From positions 1 to 64,000 of the forward strand of contig CANFLL010000008.1 of NCBI GenBank assembly GCA_947447825.1: a DNA stretch of 64,000 nucleotides, in the 5' to 3' direction. Below the pieces are notes generated by a model that was given only the letters and a program-made list of their open reading frames with translations, ran no database searches and was not told the origin of the DNA. Source of the stretch: Chitinophagaceae bacterium (lineage in GTDB: Bacteria > Bacteroidota > Bacteroidia > Chitinophagales > Chitinophagaceae). The translations under genes and the position numbers were made by a program. This document shows positions 18,171 to 59,786 of the stretch, piece by piece (within the stretch, counting starts at the first letter, position 1; each line of letters opens with the position of its first letter).

Positions 18171-18585
18171 CACTTTCATTTATTCTATTTCCAAATGCCC
18201 TTTGCACCCCTTTTCATTTTTATAGGCATCTTATTTTGAAACATTCAGCCATTAATGCTATTGGGCGTATGTTTCATTTGGGAATGCTTCCATTGACAAT
18301 GTTTCTTGGATGTTTCATTAAATACACCATCCATTAATGCTGTTTGGTGTATTCTGCTGTGGAATATGCTTCCAGTAACGTTAATGGCTGAATGTTTCAA
18401 AATAAGATGCTTGTAAAAGTGTTAATGTATTGATATTTCAAAATAAGTTGCTTATAATAGAACTAATGTATGAATGTCTCAAAATAAGATGCCTCTATTA
18501 ACGTTAATGCATGTATTCCGCATTTAATAATGCTTCCAATAAGATCATTTGGTGTTGTTTTCATTTCAGAATACATACAGTAAAA
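18171..18585. repeat. Degenerate tandem array with 41-bp period
   Basis: Unit starts fall at 18211, 18252, 18293, 18334, 18381, 18422, 18463, 18504 and 18545, which is 41 bp each except one unit of 47 bp. A typical unit starts TTAATGNNTGAATGTTTCAA and continues AATAAGATGC. The unit near the left end is inverted: 18226-18255 is a perfect 30-bp reverse complement of 18381-18410. Because 41 is not divisible by three, no peptide repeat is encoded. The array fills the gap between the divergent T9SS gene and the unknown gene at 18775. The remaining 190 bp before that gene hold no feature I recognise. Confidence 0.8.
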
Positions 18586-30950: not shown

Positions 30951-31646
30951 ATGCTCAAGTCTTGGTTATCTGCGTTCATTCACTTAATCTATCCTCACAA
31001 TTGTGAAGGCTGCGGTACAGACATACTGAATGAGAAAAGTTTTTTGTGTACCAAATGCTTATTTCAATTGCCACAAACAGGATTCATATCAAATGCAAAT
31101 AATCCCATCGAGAAAAGATTATATGGAAGAGTAAAAGTTGAAGAAGCAGGTGCAGCTTTTTATTTTACTAAGGATGGATTATTGCAACACTTGATAGGGC
31201 AACTTAAATATAAGAACAATAGAGAAATGGGACTTTATTTGGGGCGACTGGTGGGTAATCAATTAAAAGCTACTCATCGATTTGATGGTTTGGAAGCTTT
31301 AATACCATTGCCCTTAAATGAAAGAAAACTACGAGTACGAGGCTACAATCAGTCGGAGATAATTTGCGAGGGCATTATTTCAGTATGGCCAAAAGCATTA
31401 ATAACAGATGCTGTTTGCAGGGTGATTGATACAGCCACACAAACAAATAAATCATTAACGGATAGGTGGGAGAACATTGAGGGGGCATTTGCCATTGCCG
31501 ATGCAACAAAAATAGAAGGTAAACATATTGCCTTGGTAGATGATATAATAACCACTGGTGCATCCATTGAATCTTGTGGAAGAGAGCTACTTAAAGTTAA
31601 AGGCGTGCGTCTTTCAGTGCTTTGTGTTGGTGCAACTAATTTATAA
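30951..31646 (+). CDS. comF: ComF family phosphoribosyltransferase-like protein
   Basis: The 231-residue protein has two N-terminal Cys pairs (CEGCG and CTKCL, a zinc ribbon), the segment ALIPLPLNERKLRVRGYNQSE typical of ComF, and the PRPP-binding loop IALVDDIITTGASIE. ComF proteins act in uptake or processing of single-stranded DNA during transformation in several bacteria, although the enzyme reaction is not established. It follows radA by 130 bp, so both may belong to one recombination-related unit. Confidence 0.9.
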   Translation: MLKSWLSAFIHLIYPHNCEGCGTDILNEKSFLCTKCLFQLPQTGFISNANNPIEKRLYGRVKVEEAGAAFYFTKDGLLQHLIGQLKYKNNREMGLYLGRLVGNQLKATHRFDGLEALIPLPLNERKLRVRGYNQSEIICEGIISVWPKALITDAVCRVIDTATQTNKSLTDRWENIEGAFAIADATKIEGKHIALVDDIITTGASIESCGRELLKVKGVRLSVLCVGATNL

Positions 31647-31696: not shown

Positions 31697-32074
31697 CCCA
31701 TATTTTCTTATTCATCGATTGCCTATTGCTACCTATGCTGCAAACTAGGGAGCCATATAAAGTGCATTTAGTGCCTTCTTAGCAGTGCGTTTTGCTAAAA
31801 TAAGTGCTTTACAATCCTTTCCTGCTAATTAGGAAGCTCATTCACTTGCTTTGGTTTCCTTCGCTGCAAGGAAGGAAGCTTATTCATGTAATTATGCTTC
31901 CTTTCTTGCTAATCAGCTTGCTCATTCAGATGCGTGAGCTTCCTACGCTGCAAAGCAGGAAGCTTAGTTGCTCCATTTTATTGCCTTCTCTGCTGAGAAG
32001 GAAGCTCATGCACGCCAACGAGGTAATTTCGGAGCAGAGAAGGCAGCTAAAACACTTTTTTACTAACTATACAG
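31697..32074. repeat. Tandem array of 42-bp hairpin units
   Basis: Units start at 31739, 31781, 31823, 31865, 31907, 31949, 31991 and 32033, exactly 42 bp apart. Unit starts alternate between TGCAA and TGCTAA/TGCTGA types. Each unit boundary sits in the loop of a stem such as GCTTCCT/AGGAAGC (31938-31944 with 31957-31963), CCTTCTC/GAGAAGG or TTCCT/AGGAA. On the plus strand one frame (31804-32085) is open and shows a 14-residue periodicity (RKLIH, RKLSC, RKLMH at the end of units), but its composition is not protein-like and it lacks context, so I treat the array as non-coding. It separates comF from pta. Confidence 0.8.
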
Positions 32075-32777: not shown

Positions 32778-34865
32778 ATGAGCAATGCAATTTATATAGC
32801 TACCAACCAGCCTTATAGCGGTAAATCGGTTGTAGCACTCGGTCTGCTTAACATGCTTTATGGCAAAACAAAGAAAGTAGCTTATTTTAAGCCAATAATC
32901 TACCGCCCCAATGAAAAAGAAAAGGATTTTCATATCCAAATGATTTCTTCTTTTTTCAAACTAAATATCCCTTACGAGGACATGTATGCTTTTACTCGAG
33001 AAGAAGTTTTGCAACATCGAGCGGCTGGCAATGATGCTTTCGTAATAGATACTATCATTGAAAAGTTTAAACGCCTTGAAGAAAACAATGATTTTGTGGT
33101 GGTAGAAGGTACAGACTTTTTGAAAGATGGCGTATCGTATGACTTTGATGCAAACATTGCTATTGCCAAAAACTTAGGGATTCCAGTTATAATATTGGTA
33201 AGTGCTGATAAGTCAGAAAATGATTCAGTTGTAAATAATCTTTTAGCAGTCTGCAAAAGTTTTAGTGATAAAGATATTCAAGTTCTTGCCGCCATCGTTA
33301 ACAAGACTGCACCAGACGCTATTGATTCGTTGAGAGGTATATTGGAAAGTCAACTCCCAGAAAATTTATTGCTAAGTATTATTCCTAGTAATAAAAATCT
33401 TGATAGCCCAAGCATGAAAGAAATTGTAGAATCTATTGGAGGAACGGTGCTATTAGGGCATGAAAATCTAGGTAATCAAGTCGATCATTCAATTGTAGGT
33501 GCTATGCAATTAAGAAATTTGTTGCTTCGGCTAAAACCAAATACATTAATTGTAACTCCTGGCGATAGAGGTGATATTATTATGGCTGCCATGCAAGCTA
33601 ACATTTCTACCAACTATCCAAAAGTTGCTGGATTAATACTTACTGGAGGGCTAGAACCTGAAGAACCCATACTTAGGTTGGTGGAAGGTTTGGAAACTGT
33701 TGTTCCTGTAGTTCAGGTGCAAACAGGCACTTTTGAAACGGTTACCAACATAAGCAAAACACCGTCTAGAATAAGTATGGATAATGGTAGTAAAATACAA
33801 CTAGCTATTAATACTTTCGATAAATATGTGAATGCGGCAGGTCTCGAAGAAAAAATAAAAACCTTCCATACAGTCGGTATAACACCGCACATGTTTCAAT
33901 ACCAGATGGTTAAAAGAGCCAAGAGCCATAAGAAACACATTGTTTTGGCAGAAGGTAATGATGATAGGGTATTAACTGCTGCTGCCAGACTATTGCAACA
34001 GGATATTGTTACATTAACAATATTAGGAGACAAAGAAGAGATAGAAATTGCATTGCGGAGGCTGAATCTTAGTTTTCCAAAAGAAAATGTACAAATAATA
34101 AATCCTTTAAAGTCTGACATATTTAATGATTATGCAGATACGCTTTATGAACTTCGTAAGACAAAGAATGTTACTCCAGAAATGGCCAGGGATATGATGG
34201 CGGATGTTTCTTATTTTGGAACAATGATGGTATATAAAGGTGATGCAGATGGAATGGTTTCTGGTGCAGTACACACCACTCAACACACCATTCGTCCGGC
34301 ATTGCAATTTGTTAAAACTAAAGCTGGCATTAATACTGTTTCCTCTGTGTTTTTCATGTGTTTAGAAGATAGGGTTTGTGTGTTTGGCGATTGTGCGGTG
34401 AACCCTAATCCAACGGCAGAACAGTTAGCCGAGATAGCCATTTCTGCGGCAGAAAGTAGTGTTGCTTTTGGAATTGAGCCATTGGTTGCCATGCTTTCCT
34501 ATTCTTCTGGAACAAGTGGGGTAGGGGAAGATGTTGATAAGGTTAGGGAAGCAACAGCATTGGTAAGAAAGTTGAAACCTGAATTAAAAGTAGAAGGACC
34601 TATTCAGTATGATGCGGCTGTGGACCCTGTGGTAGGTAAACAAAAGATGCCTAATTCGCCAGTGGCTGGTCAGGCAAGTGTGTTGATTTTTCCTGATTTA
34701 AATACAGGTAATAATACCTACAAGGCAGTGCAACGAGAAACAGGAGCTTTGGCAATTGGGCCAATGTTGCAAGGTTTAAATAAACCAGTGAATGATCTTA
34801 GTAGAGGTTGCACCATTGATGATATATTTAACACGGTAGTCATTACTGCTATTCAAGCACAATAA
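32778..34865 (+). CDS. pta: Phosphate acetyltransferase
   Basis: Pta interconverts acetyl-CoA and acetyl phosphate. The 695-residue protein is the long form: an N-terminal P-loop domain (TNQPYSGKSVVALGL), a DRTGG domain in the middle (about 210-330, LIVTPGDRGDIIMAAM) and the catalytic PTA domain from about residue 370 (KKHIVLAEGNDDRVL, DGMVSGAVHTTQHTIRPALQ, YSSGTSGVGEDVDKV, FPDLNTGNNTYKAVQR). It is followed by ackA on the same strand; the pair yields acetate and ATP. Confidence 0.95.
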   Translation: MSNAIYIATNQPYSGKSVVALGLLNMLYGKTKKVAYFKPIIYRPNEKEKDFHIQMISSFFKLNIPYEDMYAFTREEVLQHRAAGNDAFVIDTIIEKFKRLEENNDFVVVEGTDFLKDGVSYDFDANIAIAKNLGIPVIILVSADKSENDSVVNNLLAVCKSFSDKDIQVLAAIVNKTAPDAIDSLRGILESQLPENLLLSIIPSNKNLDSPSMKEIVESIGGTVLLGHENLGNQVDHSIVGAMQLRNLLLRLKPNTLIVTPGDRGDIIMAAMQANISTNYPKVAGLILTGGLEPEEPILRLVEGLETVVPVVQVQTGTFETVTNISKTPSRISMDNGSKIQLAINTFDKYVNAAGLEEKIKTFHTVGITPHMFQYQMVKRAKSHKKHIVLAEGNDDRVLTAAARLLQQDIVTLTILGDKEEIEIALRRLNLSFPKENVQIINPLKSDIFNDYADTLYELRKTKNVTPEMARDMMADVSYFGTMMVYKGDADGMVSGAVHTTQHTIRPALQFVKTKAGINTVSSVFFMCLEDRVCVFGDCAVNPNPTAEQLAEIAISAAESSVAFGIEPLVAMLSYSSGTSGVGEDVDKVREATALVRKLKPELKVEGPIQYDAAVDPVVGKQKMPNSPVAGQASVLIFPDLNTGNNTYKAVQRETGALAIGPMLQGLNKPVNDLSRGCTIDDIFNTVVITAIQAQ

Positions 34866-34982: not shown

Positions 34983-36182
34983 ATGCAAATTTTTGTAATA
35001 AACTGTGGTAGTAGTTCCATTAAATATCAGTTAATAGCAATGCCAGAAGCCAAACTTGTTTGTAGTGGACTTGTGGAAAGAATAGGTACTGATGAAAGCG
35101 TATTGAAGCACAAAGTATTTAAAGATAATGATGAATTTGTTCAGGTTAAACAAACTGGAAATGTAGATCATGGTGGTGCATTGGCAGCAGTGGTTGAGAT
35201 AATGATGGATAAAGTAAATGGCGTTATTACGTCGGCTGATGAAATTCATGCTGTTGGGCATCGGGTACTACATGGAGGAAAGGCTTTTTTTAAAACAATA
35301 CAGGTTAGTGAAGCTGTGAAAGCTCAGATAGAAACATTGTATCCACTAGGACCATTGCACCTTCCTGCAAATCTTACGGGGATTCAAGTAGCAGAAAAAT
35401 TGTTTCCTTCTTCTGCGCAAGTAGCCGTCTTTGATACTGCTTTTCACCAAACCATGCCACCGGTTGCTTATCGTTATGCAATTAGTAATGATTATTATGA
35501 AAAGAATGATGTTAGAGTATATGGATTTCATGGAACCAGTCATAAATATGTTTCGGCAAGGGCGGCGGATTATTTGCGCAATCCTGAAGCAAAAATTATT
35601 ACAATACATTTAGGAAATGGATGTAGTATGGCGGCTGTTAATGCTGGAAATTGCCTAGATACTTCCATGGGGTTAGGGCCTTTGAGTGGATTGATTATGG
35701 GCACAAGATGTGGAGATATTGATGCGTCAGTTGTTTTTCATTTGATGGAAACTTATGGGTTTTCAATTCCAGAAATGCAGACTCTTCTGAATAAGAAAAG
35801 TGGAATGTTGGGCTTATGTGGCTTTAGTGATATGCGAGATGTGAAAGCTGCCATCAAGGATGGAGATGAAGCTGCCAAACTAGCCTATGAGATGTATGCT
35901 TATAGAATTAAAAAATATATTGGATCGTATGCGGCTATCTTAAATGGCTTAGATGCTATTGTATTTACAGGTGGCATTGGAGAAAATGATGGTGCAATGC
36001 GTGCCTTGTCAGTAAAAAATTTAGAATTTTTTGGTATCACATATAATGAGAATACTGCGGTTATTTCAGTTGATGGAATAACGGAATATCAAAATGCTGG
36101 AGCTAGAGTAAAAGTTTTAGTTGTACCAACAAATGAAGAGCTGCAAATTGCCAAGGAGTGCTATGACTTAATAAATTTGTAA
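34983..36182 (+). CDS. ackA: Acetate kinase
   Basis: AckA converts acetyl phosphate and ADP to acetate and ATP. The 399-residue protein has the N-terminal phosphate motif INCGSSSIKYQLI, VGHRVLHGGKAF, VFDTAFHQTMPP, RVYGFHGTSHKYVS, TIHLGNGCSMAAV and the C-terminal FTGGIGENDGAMR. All catalytic regions are intact. It is the second gene of the pta-ackA unit. Confidence 0.97.
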   Translation: MQIFVINCGSSSIKYQLIAMPEAKLVCSGLVERIGTDESVLKHKVFKDNDEFVQVKQTGNVDHGGALAAVVEIMMDKVNGVITSADEIHAVGHRVLHGGKAFFKTIQVSEAVKAQIETLYPLGPLHLPANLTGIQVAEKLFPSSAQVAVFDTAFHQTMPPVAYRYAISNDYYEKNDVRVYGFHGTSHKYVSARAADYLRNPEAKIITIHLGNGCSMAAVNAGNCLDTSMGLGPLSGLIMGTRCGDIDASVVFHLMETYGFSIPEMQTLLNKKSGMLGLCGFSDMRDVKAAIKDGDEAAKLAYEMYAYRIKKYIGSYAAILNGLDAIVFTGGIGENDGAMRALSVKNLEFFGITYNENTAVISVDGITEYQNAGARVKVLVVPTNEELQIAKECYDLINL

Positions 36183-42131: not shown

Positions 42132-42465
42132 ACAGAAAACTGTTTATTATTTTCCATTGATTTTATAGCGTGGATAAATGTTGTATCAATAAGTTAAAAG
42201 TGGTTGTTTTTTTCAATCACTTGATATTGCAGTTACTAAGTTTATTTATAGCCATTTTTATTACACTTTGATAAATTAAAACGATTATTATCCCTCATGA
42301 GGTCTACTGCTAATTTCATAAGGAAAAGCGACAAACTTTTATGCACTCGTTCCAACTCTCAGAAAATTCTAAACTTACTCGAAGCTTATCCCAAACACGC
42401 AGCTTATCAAAATGAGCTCTTTCTTTTGGCCTCTTTCTTCCATTTATTCAACTGAATCACGCTTA

Positions 42466-42645
42466 AGTTCACTTGAGTCAGTCAATGATTCACTTGAGTC
42501 AGTCCACGACTCACCTGAGTCAGACAAAGATTCACTTGAACAAGTCGACGACTCACTTGAGTCAGCCAAAGATTCAGTTGAGCGAGTCGACGACTCACCT
42601 GAGTCAGCCAAGGACTCACTTGAGTCGTGGACTGACTCAGGTGTG
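42466..42645. repeat. Tandem array of 21-bp palindromic units (42-bp dimers)
   Basis: Units GACTCACTTGAGTCAGCCAA and variants recur every 21 bp from 42466; their tails alternate so that the higher-order period is 42 bp. Each unit holds the palindrome GACTCA-n2-TGAGTC. Because of this symmetry both strands are open over about 80 codons and encode Ser/Asp/Glu-rich heptads (DSLESV on plus, SESLADS on minus). Neither frame has a signal or known domain, so I consider the array non-coding. The rest of the 42053-42886 spacer holds the atpG promoter and no recognised gene. Confidence 0.8.
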
Positions 42646-42886
42646 TAAATGACGTTTTTTGATGCTAAAATTGCTAAATTAAATGATGCATTCATTGACA
42701 GTAAAGGGTTTTAAGGGATTTATAGATTATACCCAACAGAATTTGGTTTGCAAAATGAGAGAACCTTCATTCATCTAAAGTCAAGGGAATTAATCGTTCC
42801 TTTTGGTAAAAGCAGAAAGCTAAACTTGCTTTTGATTGTTTATATTAAAGTTATTCAGACAGACTTGAACGTATTGTTTATGGGCA

Positions 42887-59567: not shown

Positions 59568-59645
59568 AAAAACGGCAAACAATAAATCTTTCGTTGCCGT
59601 TTTTAGGCCAATAAGGGCAACAGTTCTCCTTTTTATTGCCCTTTT
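59568..59645. terminator. Twin bidirectional terminator hairpins
   Basis: AAAAACGGCAA (59568-59578) pairs perfectly with TTGCCGTTTTT (59594-59604). A second hairpin, AAGGGCAA with TTGCCCTT (59613-59642), follows, and a third AAAAACGGCAA copy lies just after it. They can terminate the regulator gene at 59787-60416 on the minus strand. Confidence 0.75.
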
Positions 59646-59786
59646 TGAACCAAAAACGGCAATCAAACGACCTTAAATTTTTTTAATATTTTTTATTTAT
59701 AGCTTGAACTAGTAACTCTTTGCAAGCTTTATATTGATGTGAGCTAAGGTTGTATTTGATTTTTTGTTCCTTACATGAAGCATCTA

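Follow-up and report, generated by a model that had tools for sequence, protein, structure and literature searches.

Palindromic tandem arrays with a step of two helical turns at a comF-like locus and elsewhere in a Chitinophagaceae genus

Described repeat elements and the array between a comF-like gene and pta

The nearest published relative of the arrays described here is BrickBuilt in Porphyromonas gingivalis, a 23-nt minisatellite located within a MITE and present in 19 copies in one strain (PMC4596501). BrickBuilt elements are intergenic and consist of spacer-less units placed between a leader and a tail with inverted-repeat ends, and they are predicted to form long stem-loops (PMC4596501). 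The REP/BIME palindromes and the GTAG/CGTC families are short, extragenic, present in many copies and thought to be mobile, and each REP family has one consensus sequence and an end tetranucleotide (PMC3733652). Our arrays resemble BrickBuilt in that they occur in the Bacteroidota, are intergenic and multi-copy, and are built of contiguous tandem units of about two helical turns. However, BrickBuilt is one sequence family, while we estimate that there are about 300 arrays per genome here, which belong to many unrelated families but have one step, and most of them lack common flanks in the sampled sequence. Unlike REP/BIME elements, the arrays have a common step but no common sequence, and the number of Y1 transposases does not track them: the counts (0-7 per genus member) are no different from those in genera without observed arrays. 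A link to Y1/RAYT transposases was thus rejected, as was membership in the REP/RAYT system, since the array sequences are unrelated and not associated with a Y1 transposase. The iterons of plasmid and phage replication are also spaced about two helical turns apart, and bind proteins on one face of the DNA, but our arrays are chromosomal and found at hundreds of loci with unrelated sequences. We found no description in the open-access literature of a genus-wide array class that combines a single step with many sequences. Bacterial repeat families are usually recognised by their sequence, whereas here a single spacing is common to unrelated sequences in much of a genus, a situation paralleled by the nucleosome-sized periods that eukaryotic satellites have in common.

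The window, by which we mean the whole stretch of 64,000 nucleotides analysed, contains an array of seven 42-bp units at positions 31767..32060, to which no strand is assigned. To the left is a comF-like gene (30951..31646, + strand) and to the right is pta (32778..34865, + strand), followed by ackA (34983-36182). An earlier, sequence-only reading had placed the array between comF and pta. The identity of pta is confirmed by a strong Pfam match, as is that of ackA, but the left neighbour can only be called comF-like, as its matches to the phosphoribosyltransferase and zinc-ribbon domains in Pfam are both below threshold. The relatives of this gene are found in uncultured freshwater Chitinophagaceae.

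The period is exactly 42 bp across the array, with no indels, and the self-identity is 0.53 at lag 42 and 0.59 at lag 84, compared to 0.24-0.26 at lags 21, 41 and 43. For the somewhat longer segment originally delineated (31697-32074), the identity is 0.48 at lag 42 and 0.54 at lag 84, while 500 Markov shuffles of this segment gave a maximum of 0.37 at any lag from 3 to 119. The exact spacing proposed from the sequence is thereby borne out, although we count seven units rather than “eight or more”. The proposed alternation of two unit types is also real, because the identity at lag 84 exceeds that at lag 42. Each unit contains two palindrome axes placed 21.0 bp apart (at 31782.5 + 21n), one of them centred on a GC core between the arms CCTTC/GAAGG, which correspond to the stem arms previously noted, and the other near CACGTG, so that the GC-core axes alternate with CACGTG-like axes. 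The periodic-dyad score is 0.49 at exactly 21.0 bp, compared to 0.41 for the next-best period and a null maximum of 0.44. However, tandem repetition of any palindromic unit automatically creates an axis at the half-period, and the informative number is thus the repeat period rather than the 21-bp half-step.

The right end of the array, CTAAAACACTTTTTT (32047..32061, + strand), is where the local-alignment homology with two other copies ends. The left end motif, AAAATAAGTGCTTTAC (31797..31812, + strand), was read from the sequence and repeats the right end in inverted, degenerate form. In the family as a whole, the right end is sharp (CACTTTTTT), while the left end is degenerate and its boundary is not sharp. 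No target-site duplication was seen at the copies of this family. A CRISPR array was considered and rejected, as the diverged units follow one another directly and are palindromic over their whole length, with no identical repeats separated by unique spacers.

Copies, periods and families of the arrays

Two whole homologous copies of the comF-pta array are located in the same genome, at 43.4 kb and 88 kb on contig C2. They are 70-78% identical to the array at comF-pta and have the same seven-unit layout, with no indel. A single weak match in G035 contained no array upon inspection.

To survey the arrays without presupposing a period, we scanned 480 kb (about 10% of the genome), including the 64-kb window and three stretches chosen because they contain arrays, for tandem repeats with periods of 9-130 bp; a period was called where the identity over 105 bp reached a threshold of 0.58. 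Thirty-five of the 41 intergenic tandem arrays had periods at multiples of 20.5-21 bp, and none were found in Markov sequence. The observed periods are 21, 42, 63, 84, 105 and 126 bp, or belong to a 41/62/103/123 series, and Tandem Repeats Finder recovered the same spectrum. One of the 41-bp arrays is intergenic and located in the window (18241..18569, no strand assigned). The suggestion that 42 bp represents four helical turns agrees with this genome-wide spectrum, and a search of intergenic DNA in the genome sample and in the relatives, as had been proposed, revealed that periods of the 42-bp type recur widely, at multiples of 20.5-21 bp. Excluding the stretches chosen for their arrays, there were 28 arrays in 380 kb, from which we estimate roughly 300 arrays per genome.

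When palindrome axes at any regular spacing were searched for, 21.0 bp ranked top at 31.8 kb and 42.5 kb of the window as well as at loci with unrelated sequences. Compared to column-permuted controls, in which the tandem structure is kept, the dyads were significant in 33 of 63 arrays (p<0.05), and in 21 they were beyond all 200 permutations. About half of the arrays were individually non-significant, but these are mostly short 21-bp arrays, for which the test has little power. The window also contains a cluster of AAAACGGCAA-type inverted repeats (59568-59660) that adjoins a gene for a long hypothetical repeat protein; it has a dyad-scan score of 0.61 but is short.

The 35 sampled array bodies comprise about seven small families (three copies in family A, four in family B and two or three in each of the rest) along with many singletons. 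Outside families A and B, the members of a family have matching bodies but mostly different flanks. The arrays are found in gaps of tandem, divergent and convergent type at rates that roughly match the frequencies of these gaps, with no marked preference for gene orientation, and a terminator or promoter role tied to orientation was therefore rejected.

Family B is represented in the window by an array of the GAGTCA type with a 21/42-bp period (42446..42648, no strand assigned) and also occurs at L192:13584-14308. It is located within a multi-copy MITE with a consensus of about 707 bp and sharp boundaries, which has the terminal inverted repeat TTCTACTTTGACAGATTA and is found in more than 30 places in G000. 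The extended inverted symmetry at the ends of the copies would mask any target-site duplication. In 11 aligned full-length copies, the only indels in the array are -21, +21 and +21 bp, while the 528-bp flanks contain nine indel events of 1-4 bp each; about three small indels would be expected in the array and none were seen, such that the contrast with the flanks is small. Family B thus has both terminal inverted repeats and sharp ends, whereas the comF-pta family is sharp only at the right, and both consist of dispersed intergenic copies with a homologous body (three copies in the comF-pta family). Family B can plausibly be regarded as a new element of the BrickBuilt kind, that is, a minisatellite in a MITE. 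The statement in the sequence-only reading that no described family fits the array is nearly right: the comF-pta array had no match in Rfam, but a similar MITE with an internal minisatellite has been published for another species of the Bacteroidota (PMC4596501).

RNA structure and coding capacity

The covarying arms described from the sequence were taken to indicate selection on structure, as would be expected if the array were transcribed into a hairpin-array RNA. Consistent with this, the RNA fold of the comF-pta array is more stable than that of shuffles on each strand (z -3.75 and -4.14), although this is expected of any array of palindromes, and in the best fold it is the adjacent units that pair with each other rather than one hairpin forming per unit. 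The covariation did not hold up. At the paired positions in the three homologous copies, 242 are unchanged, 91 have single changes, 8 have compensatory changes and 5 have non-compensatory double changes, while mis-registered controls gave 0-8 compensatory changes. Single changes thus dominate, compensatory changes are not above the controls, and the arms are simply the better-conserved part of the unit. Across 35 arrays, there were 23 compensatory versus 20 non-compensatory double changes, compared to 15.5 versus 14.0 in shuffled data, such that both classes rise together, and eight copies of family B had 17 single changes and no compensatory change. Hence, selection on stem structure, as argued from covariation, is unsupported in all three datasets. 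Given also that an exact 21-bp step is unnecessary for RNA hairpins, we consider a structurally selected RNA very improbable, and with neither an Rfam match nor a compensatory excess, a structured RNA family was rejected for the comF-pta array.

Since 21 bp corresponds to a heptad of codons, the arrays could also be short or degraded coding repeats that encode small repeat proteins. In family B, 10 of the 11 copies have one frame that stays open across the array (with heptads such as SPESxxD), and indels of 21 bp preserve the frame. However, the comF-pta array and its two homologous copies have stop codons in all six frames of all three sequences, which refutes a coding role there. Moreover, periods of 41 bp (as in the array at 18241-18569), 62 bp and 80 bp are not divisible by three, and every frame is stopped in 11 of the 63 arrays whose periods are multiples of 21 bp. 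As a general explanation, coding repeats are thus hardly credible. Such arrays can nevertheless be misannotated as small genes or structured RNAs.

Distribution, spacing and mobility

The overall sample comprised about 10% of one genome and 7-206 kb from each of twelve others, all from fragmented assemblies. Most of the further genus members that were sampled have such arrays, although some of the smallest samples had none, and the step is sometimes 20 or 20.5 bp. For example, G012 contains some 80-bp (4 x 20) arrays with a 20-bp step, such as the one around position 12195 of L346, and a few arrays in the sampled genomes have other periods. The 508 kb sampled from other genera of this family yielded no such array, and neither did 276 kb from other bacteria. 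The comF loci of close relatives L088 and L089 contain 21/42-bp repeats. A conserved position of the array between comF and pta was rejected, as the sequence upstream of pta, where it was usable in genus members, had no visible array, the two closest named comF loci had none beside the gene, and the adjacency of comF and pta was not seen among the relatives examined. In the one orthologous gap that was compared, the placement is species-specific: the array in L193 is missing at the end of the orthologous gene in six genus members, including G004, in which the gene is 90% identical.

Judging from the sequences, at least some of the arrays appear to have spread as mobile elements. We lean towards the reading that the arrays are mobile, fast-evolving, lineage-specific noncoding “dyad satellites” composed of two-turn palindromic modules, which act, if at all, as duplex DNA. 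The comF-pta array would then be one copy of a dispersed noncoding element, the body of which is a tandem chain of palindromic modules. The modules would each span two helical turns (20.5-21 bp) and be paired into 42-bp units at comF-pta. The arrays may gain and lose units through slippage in unit-sized steps or through unequal recombination, and some probably ride in MITEs while others may move as bare arrays by some further route.

A possible, though rather unlikely, alternative is that the arrays are a neutral by-product of replication slippage and template switching at hairpins and of hitch-hiking in MITEs, with no binding partner, in which case the 21-bp step would be an amplification bias of the genus. 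The species-specific position, the variation in family B by whole units, the higher-order periods of 63-126 bp, the absence of a preferred gene orientation and the lack of an excess of compensatory changes all agree with this. However, slippage alone explains neither why unrelated sequences have one period nor why diverged arrays (70-78% identity) retain it without any small indel. A step that is common to unrelated sequences and kept at 22-30% divergence without small indels points to a constraint on duplex DNA. In the dyad-satellite reading, the step would be held by putative dimers of DNA-binding proteins, or by a recombination complex, positioned along one helix face; this is the weakest part of the proposed mechanism, and an array of proteins on one helix face would be only slightly favoured over an amplification process of fixed unit size. 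It is doubtful, but conceivable, that the arrays form a lineage-specific class of chromosomal satellites whose common feature is geometry, and that a dedicated protein, either nucleoid-associated or recombinational, keeps them in register by reading the spacing of the dyads, not their sequence. If a protein or repair process does measure two helical turns, the arrays would be its footprint and point to a clade-specific factor; even if they are neutral, the amplification of tandem repeats in this lineage would be quantised.

The motif AAAAAAGTGNTTTAC marks the ends of arrays in G000 and G002. In G002, it is located at arrays in six of six sites, which represent two unrelated array sequences, one of which has a 41-bp period, and the family of the comF-pta array ends in the same motif. 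In four other species, there were seven matches to AAAAAAGTGNTTTAC, none of which was at an array. An end motif common to all arrays was rejected, as CACTTTTTT is present in a subset only. A 41-bp palindrome array (GCATTCCGCATTGCGGAATCGATAAAA...) is also found in G002, with four copies in L327, L331, L332 and L333, all of them starting with AAAAAAGTGTTTTAC. Two of these start at contig ends, suggesting that such repeats may break assemblies. Finally, an element of about 165 bp with the inverted ends ACCACATAGACACA...TGTGTCTATGTGGT was identified at L053:1029-1193, L054:259-424, L055:915-1072 and L056:830-985. Its end sequence has many matches in most genus members, and the array copy at C2:43k has one such end just upstream.
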